Assembly: GCA_025455065.1 (NCBI GenBank)
Contig: JALONG010000007.1
Span: forward strand, 62,001 to 126,000
Reading direction: 5' to 3'
Length of the DNA: 64,000 bases
DNA from: Candidatus Kapaibacterium sp.
Lineage (GTDB): Bacteria > Bacteroidota > Ignavibacteria > Kapaibacteriales > UBA4661
The position numbers and the translations under genes were made by a program. The notes below the pieces were generated by a model. It saw nothing but the letters and a program-made list of their open reading frames with translations, had not been told where the DNA came from and ran no database searches. Below are positions 129 to 34,715 of this stretch, in pieces (position 1 is the stretch's first letter; the number at the start of each line of letters is the position of its first letter).

Positions 129-170
129 AGAAAGACTTACACAAAAAATGATTTGGATTGATTATTTTGC
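129..170 (+). repeat. Unoccupied copy of a short target sequence
   Basis: This stretch (AGAAAGACTTA, one base, then a 30-base block from ACAAAAAATG to TATTTTGC) recurs at 28345-28529. There it is split by a 138-bp hairpin element flanked by TACAA on both sides. Here the same sequence is continuous, with CACAA at the junction, so it reads as the empty version of the site. I do not know what the 41-base sequence itself is. Being repeated, it may be the end of another old mobile element. Confidence 0.7.
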
Positions 171-27508: not shown

Positions 27509-28128
27509 TTAAGTAGCAGCAGCAATCGGTGAATGATGATAGGTCTCTCTGAGGCTTACACGAAGGTTGTGTAAGGCGGTTGCTAAGACCATGACCTTCT
27601 CATCAAAGCCTTGCTTCCGGTTACGAAATTTGTCTTTCACACAGCGGCATCGTTTAATGCCACTGATGCTCTGCTCATTGACAACGCGAGCCGAAGCAAC
27701 AAGCGCATTGTAATCTTTTTGTTCTTGCATCAGTTCGTCATTTTTGGGCTTTTTGTGTGGCAAAAGAATATGAACATTCGGCAGAGTAAAGCCCTGAAAC
27801 CCCAAATCTACAAGCAACTCAAGTCCTTTGGAAAAGCGAAAGCCCTGCTCTCGTGCCATCGTAATATCAACGGCACTTCCTGAGTAGGTCGGACCGAGAT
27901 ACATCACTTTCTGCGTTGCTGTGCAGAGAATTAAATTTTCTTTGGTATGGGCTTTTTTTTTCCACTAAAGTCCTTTTCTTGTTGTTTGTCGTCATGGTTA
28001 CGCTGAATTGGACGCTCGGTTCCATCAAGGTATAAGCGATCACAACCAGGAAGAAGATGCTCCAACGCTTGAGCATGACGACACGGAACATGGCGTAAAC
28101 GATCAAGTGTTTTGAAAAGAAATTGGTT
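27509..28128 (-). pseudogene. IS5-family DDE transposase, truncated and frameshifted
   Basis: Upstream of an A9 run, the frame reads LDRLRHVPCRHAQALEHLLP, then DRLYLDGTERPIQRN and DFSGKKK. The continuation AHTKENLILCTATQKVMYLG is in another frame, joined at the A9 tract (minus strand, 27953-27961). The downstream part runs through LVDLGFQGF, NDELMQEQKDYN and SGIKRCRCVKDKFRNRKQGF to a stop at 27509. The first Asp (LDGTERP), the second Asp (VDLGFQG) and the late E/R region are present. The A9 could be a programmed slip site or a mutation. The N-terminus is absent, so this copy is not functional. Confidence 0.8.
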
Positions 28129-28306
28129 CTAGTTGGATTCAGTTGGAAACAAAAATACAAACGGCTCAAACGCAAGTAATGAAGCGCTCTTTGTAACAAG
28201 GGGTTCAACCCCTTACTTCACTAATTATTACTGACAAGGGGCTGAAGCCGCCTTGTTACAGGCGTGACTGAGGAATAATGCAAAAGTATTTTTTCCAACT
28301 AAAACC
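28125..28306 (+). repeat. Family C hairpin element inside the IS remnant
   Basis: Inverted ends GGTTCTAGTTGG (28125-28136) and CCAACTAAAACC (28295-28306) enclose 182 bp. Next inside are CAAAAATAC (28150-28158) with GTATTTTTT (28286-28294), and the core stem GTAACAAGG (28193-28201) with CCTTGTTAC (28251-28259). The left arm carries an extra 10-base AGTTGG duplication. The core holds GGGGTTCAACCCC and GGGGCTGAAGCC motifs like those of family B. It interrupts the IS5-like transposase frame. No target duplication is clear, so the ends are approximate. Confidence 0.65.
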
Positions 28307-28360
28307 GAGTAGAGCCATTTAACTCATCGGTATAATGTCTATTGAGAAAGACTTATACAA

Positions 28361-28498
28361 TCAATAGTCTCGACATTTTTGCTATGGTTCTCTGAAAATT
28401 TTGCTGGAAGCCGCATAAAAACTAGATTTCGAGTAAAAAACAACGCGGCTTGAAACCCGCATAAAACCTAGGCTCTTCAAAAATGTCCAGACTATTGA
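28361..28498 (+). repeat. Family A hairpin element, copy 2, with 5-bp target duplication
   Basis: This 138-bp element has 20-bp terminal inverted repeats with one mismatch (28361-28380 and 28479-28498) and is flanked by TACAA at 28356-28360 and 28499-28503. Removing the element plus one TACAA restores the sequence seen uninterrupted at 129-170 apart from one T/C difference. This fixes both ends and proves insertion. It begins 16 bases outside the IS5-like remnant, and its outermost TCAATAG is identical to that of the IS ends. It has no coding capacity. Confidence 0.9.
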
Positions 28499-28621
28499 TA
28501 CAAAAAATGATTTGGATTGATTATTTTGCGTTTACACCACGCTTCAACAACAATCCTTTGTACTCTCATCACAATATCAACCGGAACATCAACAAAATTT
28601 TCACCGCATTGCCACGCTTTT

Positions 28622-30001
28622 ATGAACCGCTTTTCTTCCTTATCATGCAGCGTCATTACCTGCGGCATACTTGCCGCAGCAGGCTCATGGATACTCACTT
28701 CTTGCACCATGAACAGCGAACTTCCTGAAGCAGGCTCAAGTTTTGCGCTCTTGCAAGAGAAAGTTCTCACACCGAGTTGTGCCACGAGCGGCTGCCATGA
28801 CACGCGCAATGCCGTCGGCGGCTTGGATTTGTCGCCTGCTATGGCATATCAAAACCTTGTTGGTGCAGAGCCGACCAATCAGAACGCCAAAACTGATAAA
28901 CTCTTGCGTGTCAAAGCCGGAGACCCGTACAAAAGTTTTCTCTACAACAAACTTGACAGCGCGAATTTGCACAAATCTGACGGCTACGGAAGTCCGATGC
29001 CGCTTGGTTCGCGGGCTGTTACCGCCGGACAACTTGACTTTATCAAGTTTTGGATTGCCGCCGGAGCGCCGAAAAATGGAACGGTTGCCGATGCAAAACT
29101 ATTGGAAGATAATCGCCCGCAAAACGAGGTTTTAACGCTTGCGCAGCCTGCATCGGGTGTGCAAATGCGCCTTAGTCCCTTCGGGATAGCACCCCAGAAC
29201 GAGCGTGAAATCTATTTCGCACAGGCGAATACGCAAGAACTCATTATGACCAAATTCGAGATGATTCAGCGCGACCGCAGCCACCACTTTATTCTTTACG
29301 GTCATGCTCCGACAGCAGGTAAAACCATGCCTCGGACGAATGTTATTCGTGATTTGTACTTGCCCAATGGTCAGCTTATTCCTGAGCGTTTTCCTGAAAT
29401 GTCCGGGCGCACATTCATCATCGCTTCCCAACTTAAAGCCGAGACGATTGAATTTCCCCCCGGAATGGCAATGCGCATCCCTGCAAATTGGCTTCTGGAC
29501 TTGAACTCGCACTATACCAATGGCACACGCGACACGATTCGCGGCGAGGTGCTGTTTAACATTCACACGACTCCAGCTTCTAATGTCAGAACTTTCGTGA
29601 AGCCCTTGCAGCTAGGATTTTTCAACCTTCTTTTGCCGCCCAAAAAAGAAACCGTTGTAGAAACGACATTTTTGGTGGGCGGAGGTGGCTCAGGAAGCGG
29701 TCAAGACCGTTTTAGTAGCCGTGATACCCTTGTGAATATTATCGGGCTGACCTCGCACACACACCGCATGGGGCGGCGCTTTGTAACGCAAATTGTGGGT
29801 GGACCGCGCAATGGAGAAGTGATTTATACGGCAACAAACTGGCTGAATCCACCTCTGTTGAAATTTGATACGCCGATTGTCTTGCGTCGCGGAGAGGGCT
29901 TAAAATCTATCGTTACCTACTACAACGACACGAACGAAACCGTTACGTTTGGCTTCCGTTCTACCGATGAGATGAATTTTATCTTTGGGTATTTTTACTG
30001 A
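28622..30001 (+). CDS. Lipoprotein: cytochrome c motif plus PHM-like copper monooxygenase
   Basis: The 459-residue protein has signal peptide and lipobox ILTSC (Cys28). The N-terminal domain carries CATSGCH (Cys53, Cys58, His59), a C-x4-C-H heme-attachment-like motif, with PMPLG as possible axial Met (about 126-130). The C-terminal part has the ligand set of type II copper ascorbate-dependent monooxygenases: His221/His222 (RSHHFILYG), His297 (NSHYTN), His379/His381 (SHTHRMG) and Met451 (MNFIFGY). That suggests a secreted dicopper oxygenase fed electrons by an attached cytochrome. Substrate unknown. The start at 28622 is preferred because the upstream ATG (28517) lies in the repeated flank of the hairpin element. 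Confidence 0.82.
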   Translation: MNRFSSLSCSVITCGILAAAGSWILTSCTMNSELPEAGSSFALLQEKVLTPSCATSGCHDTRNAVGGLDLSPAMAYQNLVGAEPTNQNAKTDKLLRVKAGDPYKSFLYNKLDSANLHKSDGYGSPMPLGSRAVTAGQLDFIKFWIAAGAPKNGTVADAKLLEDNRPQNEVLTLAQPASGVQMRLSPFGIAPQNEREIYFAQANTQELIMTKFEMIQRDRSHHFILYGHAPTAGKTMPRTNVIRDLYLPNGQLIPERFPEMSGRTFIIASQLKAETIEFPPGMAMRIPANWLLDLNSHYTNGTRDTIRGEVLFNIHTTPASNVRTFVKPLQLGFFNLLLPPKKETVVETTFLVGGGGSGSGQDRFSSRDTLVNIIGLTSHTHRMGRRFVTQIVGGPRNGEVIYTATNWLNPPLLKFDTPIVLRRGEGLKSIVTYYNDTNETVTFGFRSTDEMNFIFGYFY

Positions 30002-30137
30002 CAATAGTTCGGATATTTTTAAAATACGAGTAAGGAAATTTTGCCAAAAGCCACATAAAACCTCAACTCTTGTTCAAAAATACTTTGCTATACAAGCCGC
30101 ATGAAATATAGCTTCTTGAAAAATATCCGAGAAATTG
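30002..30137 (+). repeat. Diverged family A element abutting a stop codon
   Basis: CAATAGTTCGGATATTTTT (30002-30020) and AAAAATATCCGAGAAATTG (30119-30137) form imperfect inverted ends. The interior AAAATTTTGCCAAAAGCC and CATAAAACCT matches family A at many positions. It begins on the base after the TGA of the copper-protein gene, so it may act as that gene's terminator hairpin. It is older than the other copies, judged by divergence. Confidence 0.65.
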
Positions 30138-30170
30138 GGATGAAACAATCTAACGCTACGAAAAAAGACT

Positions 30171-31253
30171 TTACCCCCTTTTGGGTGATAGATTGACAAA
30201 TTCCAACACCAGATCTTCAATATGCCCTAACAAATTGATAATCTGTTCTTTAGAGAAGATTTTACCACTGTCGCAAAGGTCTTTGACGAAGCGCTGAAAT
30301 TCCGGAAGCGAGTCCTTGCAATCCGCATGGTGAAATACTTTAAGGCGAATCACGTGAATGGCATACTCAACAGGATTAAGTTTCGGTGAATATGCTGGCA
30401 TCAAATGAAACCGTACCGCAATGGGTAACGTTCTGGTGGCTTCGAGTACCATAGCCCACATCTTGTTTTTGTGTGTGGTATTTCTGTCGAGGAAGATGTC
30501 CAGTTTGCTCTTTCCGCGATGATGATACTCTTTGACAAGTTCGATAAAATAGGCAGCAACCTGCTCAGTTTTCGCTTCAGTGCTGGCTTGGAAATGATAT
30601 TCGCTCTCAAGAATATCTACTCCCAGCAAGCCGTTGGTTCTGGCTCTTTTTTTTCGTCGGTTACCACTGTTGGTCGGGTGTTTTTCTCTGCCCAGCCATA
30701 GTGCGGTGTAGGGATAGCGCCAATGGAAAACTCGTCGAAACAGACCACTACCGATTTGTCCTCGGCAGCATTGAGAGTATGACGAAAATCTTCTAAAAAT
30801 AACGCGTGATATTCTCTGGAGGCATTGCCATAATCGGCATAAGCGCGTTGATGGGAAAGACCTAAACGCTCCAAAAGGTCGTAGATACCGCTTTTGTAGC
30901 TTACCCCATACCGAGCCAGAAGAAACTGACGCATACGCTCACCAGTCCAGATATTGCTTTCAAGACCTTCTTCTGCTGGACGGCGAGTCAGAAGCACTGT
31001 TTTGAAGGCTGTGAGCTGCTCTTGAGCCAGGCGCTCCGGTTGCTTTTCGCTTGTCGCGCTGACAGAGACCCTTAAAGCCTGATTCTATGTACCTCGCAAG
31101 GTACGTGCAGCAACTTGCTTCTGATTTGTCAATGATAGTAGCGACATCTTTGATTTCTTTTCCTTCGGCGAAGGTTTTGATACAAAGGAGCTTAACGCGC
31201 AGATACTCTTGCTGATACCGATGGTAATATCGCTGATATTCTTCGATATTCAT
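30171..31253 (-). pseudogene. IS630-family transposase, broken in three frames
   Basis: The reading starts MNIEEYQRYYHRYQQEYLRV at 31253 with a helix-turn-helix region (EIKDVATIIDKSEASCCTYL). It shifts frame near 31050, continues as RLAQEQLTAFKTVL to a DDE core with VVCFDEFSIGAIPTPHYGW, then shifts again at an A8 run (minus strand, 30647-30654) into GVDILESEYHFQAS. The rest holds LDIFLDRNTTHKNKM, LMPAYSPKLNPVEYAI and the end at 30171. All three acidic residues (CFDE, LDRN, NPVEY) survive, but in different frames. I could not find confident inverted repeats. The second shift at poly-A might be programmed; the first looks like damage. Confidence 0.82.
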
Positions 31254-31378
31254 CCGCGAGAAAGAAATTTTGAACGAGTGTGCTTCATCGTTTGTATGTA
31301 GTGTTAAATTTTGCAATATATCAACCGAAAGGGAATAACTCAATTTGGTATTATTGTTGCAATTCCAACAAAAAACAA

Positions 31379-34442: not shown

Positions 34443-34634
34443 CTATGATTTTTTTGTTCGTAAAAAATCTCGTAAACTTATATCGTTTAATGCTGTGTTG
34501 AACATAAACATATCGTTCATTGTAGCACTTTTCCAAGGCTCAAATTTACGTGAAAGTTCCGATAGATCTGAAGCAGTTTTGTTACCTAGCTGTAACTTTA
34601 CACTGAAAGTTAAATAAATCAATAGTCTGGACAT
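34443..34634 (-). pseudogene. Gene remnant ending at a terminator
   Basis: A 63-residue frame ends KSATMNDMFMFN...FLRTKKS, 10 bases before a good terminator. Its first dozen codons (MSRLLIYLTFSV) are translated from the hairpin element and the repeated ACTGAAAGTTA sequence, so only the part after about residue 18 can be original. The family is not recognised. It is most likely the 3' end of a gene destroyed by the insertions at 34600-34715. Confidence 0.4.
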
Positions 34635-34715
34635 TTTGGCTACGATTCTCTAAAAATTTTGCTGGAATCCGCATAAAACCTAGATTTCGAGTAAAAAACA
34701 GCGCGGCTTGAAACC
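34619..34715 (+). repeat. Family A hairpin element, copy 3, right end missing
   Basis: TCAATAGTCTGGACATTTTG opens the element. It matches the other copies through GCGCGGCTTGAAACC at 34715 and then stops, lacking the last 40 bp and the right inverted repeat. It joins directly to coding sequence of the small gene at 34680-34841 on the opposite strand, so a deletion or a second rearrangement occurred here. Confidence 0.8.

Follow-up and report, generated by a model that had tools for sequence, protein, structure and literature searches.

The window, the whole 64,000-nucleotide stretch of DNA that was analysed, carries at 28362-28497 a short non-coding element that is a genuine miniature inverted-repeat transposable element (MITE), a new family (family A) of a known kind, whose parent group was identified. 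Remnants of IS5-type (27509-27907) and IS630-type (30171-31343) transposase genes lie near it. The features of the locus are as follows:

28355-28360, plus strand: left target duplication, ATACAA
28361, plus strand: extra T separating the left duplication from the MITE, unexplained
28362-28497, no strand: family A MITE (136 bp, non-coding), with constant ends CAATAG...CTATTG
28362-28381, plus strand: left terminal inverted repeat, CAATAGTCTCGACATTTTTG, 1 mismatch to the family consensus
28478-28497, minus strand: right terminal inverted repeat, CAATAGTCTGGACATTTTTG (minus-strand reading), matching the C38 insertion sequence at 20/20 positions of its left end
28498-28503, plus strand: right target duplication, ATACAA

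An earlier note on this DNA had described a repeat with inverted ends, a flanking direct repeat and an unoccupied counterpart, all of which are found where it put them. Its 20-bp inverted ends (CAATAGTCTSGACATTTTTG) stand, but the length of 138 bp does not, as the edges were set by comparing 23 complete elements from the same genome, among which the outer T/A of the 138-bp version differ and CAATAG...CTATTG are constant. Similarly, there is a target duplication, but it is ATACAA (6 bp, with the extra T at 28361) and not the 5-bp TACAA; TACAA flanking a 138-bp element is an equivalent alternative reading of it. The note did not recognise the element, the kind of which is nonetheless recognisable. 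With 136 bp and coding room for 45 residues at most, it contains no transposase and has the size of a MITE, given as ~50-1000 bp in a passage of PMC4596501 and as 70-300 bp in one of PMC3733652. Its description as mobile and non-coding is backed by the dispersed copies, repeated 5-6 bp duplications, interrupted gene and transposase with matching ends set out below.

Dispersed copies and sister subfamilies

The genome that contains the window (G000; 5.6 Mb, 131 contigs) was compared with 30 relatives. Within this genome the 138-bp query gave 18 matches at E values up to 0.001, 15 spanning 136-138 bases and 3 partial; 14 of the 15 near-full-length matches have at least 85% identity, and the other (C24), which belongs to a sister subfamily, has 72%. 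The relatives yielded short, weak matches in 3 of the 30 (E 3e-4 to 7e-4). The 20-bp consensus end, at up to 3 mismatches, was found at 51 sites (1 for the reversed control), and the own genome has 15 exact end pairs with a spacing of 114-144 bp, whereas 0/30 relatives have any. The copies are thus dispersed and their ends constant. The window holds three further elements:

289-424, no strand: another complete family A copy (93% identity), at which no target duplication was seen
34620-34715, no strand: third family A copy, truncated after ~96 bp, 92% identical
30002-30136, no strand: copy of sister subfamily E, 91% identical over 30002-30130; right end decayed, its limit set by eye

The last of these lies directly 3' of the stop codon of a predicted ORF (28517-30001). 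The sister subfamilies of the genome are:

Subfamily E: 135-136 bp, ~71% identical to family A where aligned (C18, C24, C40, C130)
Subfamily B: 113 and 123 bp (C38)
Subfamily D: 123 and 137 bp (C78, C121)

The relative G001 has one element of 146 bp with ACCT at both sides. Pairwise identity among the 14 family A copies is 84-98.5%, and their spread is therefore not very recent. In a four-gamete test on these copies 63 of 120 site pairs displayed the full set of four combinations, and in 7 of the 63 every combination was represented two or more times; either the copies are mosaics or sites recur. Six copies other than the element at 28362-28497 are within 1 kb of a contig end. Two family A copies near contig starts, C30:230-365 and C33:134-269, have one flank in common (CGAAAGTCCTATAYAT) and differ in the other.

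Target duplications

Duplications were counted over the 23 complete own-genome elements of at most 150 bp, excluding longer end pairs and the G001 element. An exactly abutting repeat of 5-6 bp flanks 12 elements (ATCAT, TTTCGT, CACTAC, GAATTA, ATACAT, TAAACT, ACAAAT, TTAAT, AAGAG, AATGCT, TTCCCA and CTACAG; 71% A+T), a repeat offset by one base is seen at 3 more (the 28362-28497 MITE, C94 and C44), and the remaining 8 have none. Shuffling the right flanks (5000 trials) produced a mean of 0.56 and a maximum of 5 exact repeats against the 12 observed, and shuffled flank pairs (5000), with the one-base offset allowed on either side, a mean of 0.98 and a maximum of 6 against 15. Family A alone has a repeat, offset allowed, at 9 of its 14 copies and none at 5. 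Thus the target duplication that serves as a hallmark of MITEs is present in 12/23 exactly and in 15/23 with the offset; the consistent 5-bp duplication looked for in other copies is borne out as a duplication, but its size is usually 6 bp and 8/23 elements lack it. An origin of the duplication-less copies by exchange between copies was rejected: when the flanks of the 8 elements were crossed in both orientations, no repeat of at least 5 bp was restored.

A filled site, its unoccupied counterpart and an interrupted gene

The flanks of the MITE, joined, recur close to the start of the window:

129-170, plus strand: unoccupied 42-bp target duplicate, 41/42 identical to the joined flanks, with target ACACAA at 139-144

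The 41/42 is a direct count that leaves out the extra T and one copy of the duplication. A BLAST comparison of the joined flanks with positions 1-600 of the window gave a single strong match (93.5% over 46 columns, E 4e-15), the sole gap of which is the extra T at 28361, and no comparable match beyond the 129-170 stretch. The pattern AGAAAGACTTAYACAAAAAATGATTTGG, at up to 3 mismatches, has one occurrence in the own genome, which is the empty site. Because the match is unbroken across the join, 129-170 is good evidence for the entry point of the MITE. It is not an allele, since its surroundings differ and its target is one base off (ACACAA versus ATACAA). The unoccupied counterpart is therefore real; as a dispersed duplicate, however, it is weaker evidence than an allelic empty site would be. 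The stretch sits 118 bp from the family A copy at 289-424. That the flank sequence is a repeat family in its own right was considered and rejected, its 30-bp right half occurring twice in the own genome and in 0/30 other genomes; the chance expectation in the window is 0.00.

A second, independent filled site with a reconstructed target is provided by C24, where a 136-bp subfamily E element interrupts a transposase gene close to its 3' end, with TTCCCA on each side. Joining the flanks yields a 461-codon open frame, in which the tail past the site, IEMLKNHPQYHTIRNYGV, is similar to that of the intact G005 protein, EMIKNHPEFSAIRNYAI. On C18, 160 bp that match this arrangement at 99.4% identity take in the gene tail, TTCCCA and some of the nested element, and the genome thus has two copies of part of the gene with its nested MITE; the C18 stretch continues to an apparent right insertion-sequence end, CAATGGTTCGGACAAAATTA read inward, with 5 mismatches to the consensus. 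C18:17301-17590 is a chimera that combines one end of family A with a subfamily E element and the 3' end of the C24-type insertion sequence. Joined flanks contain open frames of at least 90 codons at 6/24 sites, several sites having short flanks near contig ends. As candidates for other interrupted genes, four frames were translated, of which only the C24 transposase was recognisable and three look like chance frames.

It could be argued that the pair formed by 28361 and 129-170 is an artefact of assembly or duplication and not the record of an insertion, as the homology is limited to 42 bp, the two places are 28 kb apart on one contig and six other copies lie near contig ends. The match, however, continues over the join at the constant MITE ends, and C24 supplies an independent reconstructed site; we regard an artefact as very unlikely.

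A probable parent insertion sequence in the genus

The transposase with matching ends that the earlier note proposed to look for was found, in a broken insertion sequence of the own genome and an intact relative in the sibling genome G005. The former (C38:45201-46771; 1571 bp) is bounded by two facing ends that agree with the MITE consensus at 20/20 (left) and 18/20 (right) positions, and its DDE_5-type transposase is split over two frames, with a copy of a separate repeat, R2 (see below), inside. The MITE thus has its ends in common with an autonomous type of element, of which the C38 representative is itself broken. Only the terminal 20 bp are shared, and the MITE interior therefore does not visibly derive from the C38 insertion sequence. 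The G005 element (L075:976-2369; 1394 bp) encodes an intact transposase of 441 aa; its left end shares the outer 18 bases with the consensus (18/20) and its right end agrees over the first 15. At loci in G002 (4/4 seen) and G004 (2/3) an end of the MITE type leads into a similar leader, and the position of these loci, mostly at contig ends, suggests several copies.

Transposase matches in the own genome are limited to C38 (broken copy), C24 (interrupted copy) and C65 (tail fragment); no intact transposase of the parent type was found in its assembly. The ends of family A (TCTGG) match those of the C38 element and the ends of subfamily E (TTCGG) match the left end of the C24 element (19/20), as would follow from each lineage having mobilised MITEs of its own. 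No duplication was found at the longer two-ended elements of the genus (C38, 1571 bp; G005, 1394 bp; G004, 540 bp). A PDB search with the transposase returned one match, at a meaningless E value of 0.91.

Far relatives and family placement of the parent

A scan with three transposases identified 21 loci, mostly in Bacteroidota, and plasmid records added relatives from Leptolyngbya, Persicobacter, Deinococcus and Bacteroides; a protein scan of genome contigs with the C-terminal piece of the C38 protein gave 0 matches, while the alignment scan did find loci. The search for ends covered 16 of the 21 loci; as L086 among them is the G005 sibling, 15 far relatives remain, some cut by contig ends. 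Of these, 9 have CAATA/CAATG ends, and 4 of the 9 also have a flanking repeat of 5-7 bp (CTATTA, TCAATA, TTACTTA, TTTAA). Of 6 plasmid loci, 5 have such ends, and at 4 of the 5 there is a repeat of 6-7 bp (GTTAAA, TATTAAA, ATTCTTA, ACTAAAT); the sixth, L112, is a circular record unsuited to the end-finding script. Similar ends and repeats of 5-7 bp are thus observed around full-length relatives elsewhere, the repeats being 7 bp in four of the eight longer relatives with duplications. It should be emphasized that the end ranking gave a bonus for a flanking repeat, and the relatives' ends are therefore best candidates and not blind calls. The whole L112 record (NZ_OY725802.1, Parabacteroides distasonis 'plasmid 57', 1477 bp, circular) resembles one insertion sequence of the parent group with its ends 2 bp apart, the equivalent in Bacteroides finegoldii being 1475 bp; it may be a circular transposition form or an assembly product.

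The motif Y-2-R-3-E-6-K is complete in 12 of 13 transposases, the exception (L101) being a frame interrupted by 20 stops. Among NCBIfam models IS701_3 scores best for the G005 and C24 proteins, at 89.1 and 86.9 bits against a cut-off of 170, and it is also the best, well below the cut-off, for five relatives including ISDra7. No IS1634 model matched the G005 and C24 proteins at E values up to 0.001; weak matches to IS1634 models were given by the C38 fragment (16 bits, cut-off 100) and two Deinococcus proteins (43.8 and 38.2 bits). In the 2008 classification (De Palmenaer 2008, PMC2266710), a complete YREK marks IS4, with duplications of 7-13 bp, and IS701, ISH3 and IS1634 are without complete YREK and have duplications of 4-6 bp, those of IS701 being 4 bp and those of IS1634 5-6 bp and AT-rich. 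The parent group likewise has a complete YREK but differs from IS4 in its duplications (5-7 bp versus 7-13 bp). From IS701 it differs in the complete YREK, in duplication length (5-7 bp versus 4 bp), in a score below the cut-off and in its ends, which depart from the IS701 pattern ---YACT-Y--YR given there. The 5-6 bp MITE duplications fit IS1634, a family also characterised by a long N3-C1 spacer, whereas the complete YREK does not. The parent group thus sits between the IS4 and the IS701/IS1634 families of the 2008 scheme.

A named relative is ISDra7 of Deinococcus radiodurans (CP094464 MSS93_16930, 'IS4-like element ISDra7 family transposase'), the protein of which is 27.5% identical to the N-terminal piece of the C38 transposase; other Deinococcus copies have ~33% identity to the intact G005 protein. 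The ISDra7-like element contains the complete Y-2-R-3-E-6-K, has ends CAATGGTTCGTG versus CAATAGTTCGG and is autonomous (~1.3 kb), whereas the MITE retains only ends of this type. No flanking repeat was found at the ISDra7-labelled copy; a related Deinococcus element on NC_000958 has ATTCTTA at both flanks.

REP-type palindromes in sister elements

Subfamilies B and D contain one or two palindromes of the CACAGACATTCTTGTCTGTG type, often GTGG- or GTAG-tagged. Such palindromes are also held by the G001 elements with a CAATAGTYYGG-type end on at least one side, and one G005 element contains a decayed version. The R2 repeat is a separate small repeat with ends TTATACCAATTTGAGTTGA and a CACAGACATTCTTGTCTGTG-type palindrome inside (for example L059:1500-1660 and L039:1530-1690), a copy of which lies in the C38 transposase gene; 62 of the 64 matches of a translated search of the own genome were in the R2 part of the query, and about 20 were viewed with their surroundings. 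R2 had no match in the window. The CACAGACATTCTTGTCTGTG-type palindrome is also found alone at other places. The window has no occurrence of GTRGCACAGACATTCYTGTCTGTG at up to 3 mismatches, and by this measure the MITE is not a REP or BIME.

REPs tagged with GTAG, palindromes of 20-40 bp, are associated with transposase (RAYT) genes in the account given in PMC3733652. Of two Y1_Tnp genes in the own genome, that on C58 has flanking palindromes of this kind, two in number and the second tagged on both strands; the C96 gene has none. The C58 locus (L139) has a RAYT-type Y1_Tnp domain in ORF 69-1559, with GTAG-tagged palindromes at 54 and 564, and this domain appears to be in frame inside a frame whose C-terminal part looks, by eye, RecG-like.

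When element cores were compared, subfamily E and the G001 element had a common stretch of 27 bp that scored above all 300 shuffles; E against B was equalled by 4 of 300 shuffles and E against D by 25. For the cores of two family A copies the shuffles that did as well numbered 1 and 7 against G001, 31 and 9 against D, and 73 and 187 against B. We offer tentatively, and as the less probable reading, that REP doublets are cargo within MITE ends, REPs being dispersed by two routes (RAYT and MITE hitch-hiking), and that family A is a descendant in which the REP hairpins eroded. Such a descent of family A is no more than possible: the stretch common to E and G001 favours it, and the other core comparisons are weaker or count against it.

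Discussion

The MITE at 28362-28497 is, with high probability, served by an ISDra7-like transposase of the IS4/IS701 type. Its 20-bp ends would be the binding and cleavage sites of this DDE transposase (IS4/IS701 superfamily), supplied in trans by a parent insertion sequence of ~1.3-1.6 kb whose ends in the genus are CAATAGTYYGGACATTTTTG. The enzyme would bind both 20-bp ends, cut the MITE out at CAATAG/CTATTG and join it to staggered cuts ~6 bp apart in AT-rich DNA, leaving the 5-6 bp duplication. We infer mobilisation in trans from the match of the ends; the cut-and-paste chemistry is suggested by the relationship to IS4/IS701, and present inactivity in this assembly by the finding that the two longer transposase genes are both broken.

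A different transposase, such as that of the IS5-type or IS630-type remnants, both of which lie less than 3 kb from the MITE, could be proposed as the agent of movement. The matching ends, however, sit on the DDE_5 insertion sequence instead, and IS630 elements duplicate TA, which does not fit 5-6 bp; there is thus little chance that one of these enzymes moved the MITE. Least credible of all is an immobile repeat that is retained for function, be it as a regulatory RNA, a REP-like hairpin or a protein-binding site, because the predicted transcript fold, a long hairpin on both strands (z -5.39 and -4.67), would fit such a repeat but is a consequence of the inverted ends, no Rfam family was matched in 28000-31000 at E values up to 1, and duplications of varied sequence together with a split transposase gene mean insertion.

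The element has parallels among known MITEs. Archaeal MITEs with IS4/IS1634-type parents (Kamoun 2013, PMC3852290) are of the same size class, have ends in common with an insertion sequence and are flanked by short repeats, a likeness of description. We take the four values in the PMC3852290 rows for ISHwa2 (IS4; 237, 34, 17, 5) and ISMba11 (IS1634; 247, 23, 20, 6) to be element length, copy number, inverted-repeat length and direct-repeat length, as the passage gives no column heads. BrickBuilt / MITEPgRS of Porphyromonas gingivalis similarly resemble a resident insertion sequence at their ends and contain no remnant of a transposase, and filled and empty sites were compared between strains; they differ in having IS5-type parents and other ends, as described in that part of PMC4596501. 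Among the papers searched there was none with the two end sequences, the REP or the R2 end as strings, none joining miniature inverted-repeat transposable elements with Ignavibacteri- or Kapabacteria, and none naming ISDra7.

The identification of the MITE explains an otherwise unnamed dispersed repeat and assigns it a transposase, and its exact ends can now guide the annotation of Ignavibacteria-type genomes. The parent group fits the 2008 classification slightly awkwardly, because it combines a complete YREK with duplications of 5-7 bp and the scheme pairs YREK with 7-13 bp. The REP-type hairpins in the sister MITEs are perhaps the newer aspect of this study, and through their REP cores the sister MITEs connect two kinds of small repeat in a way that can be tested.
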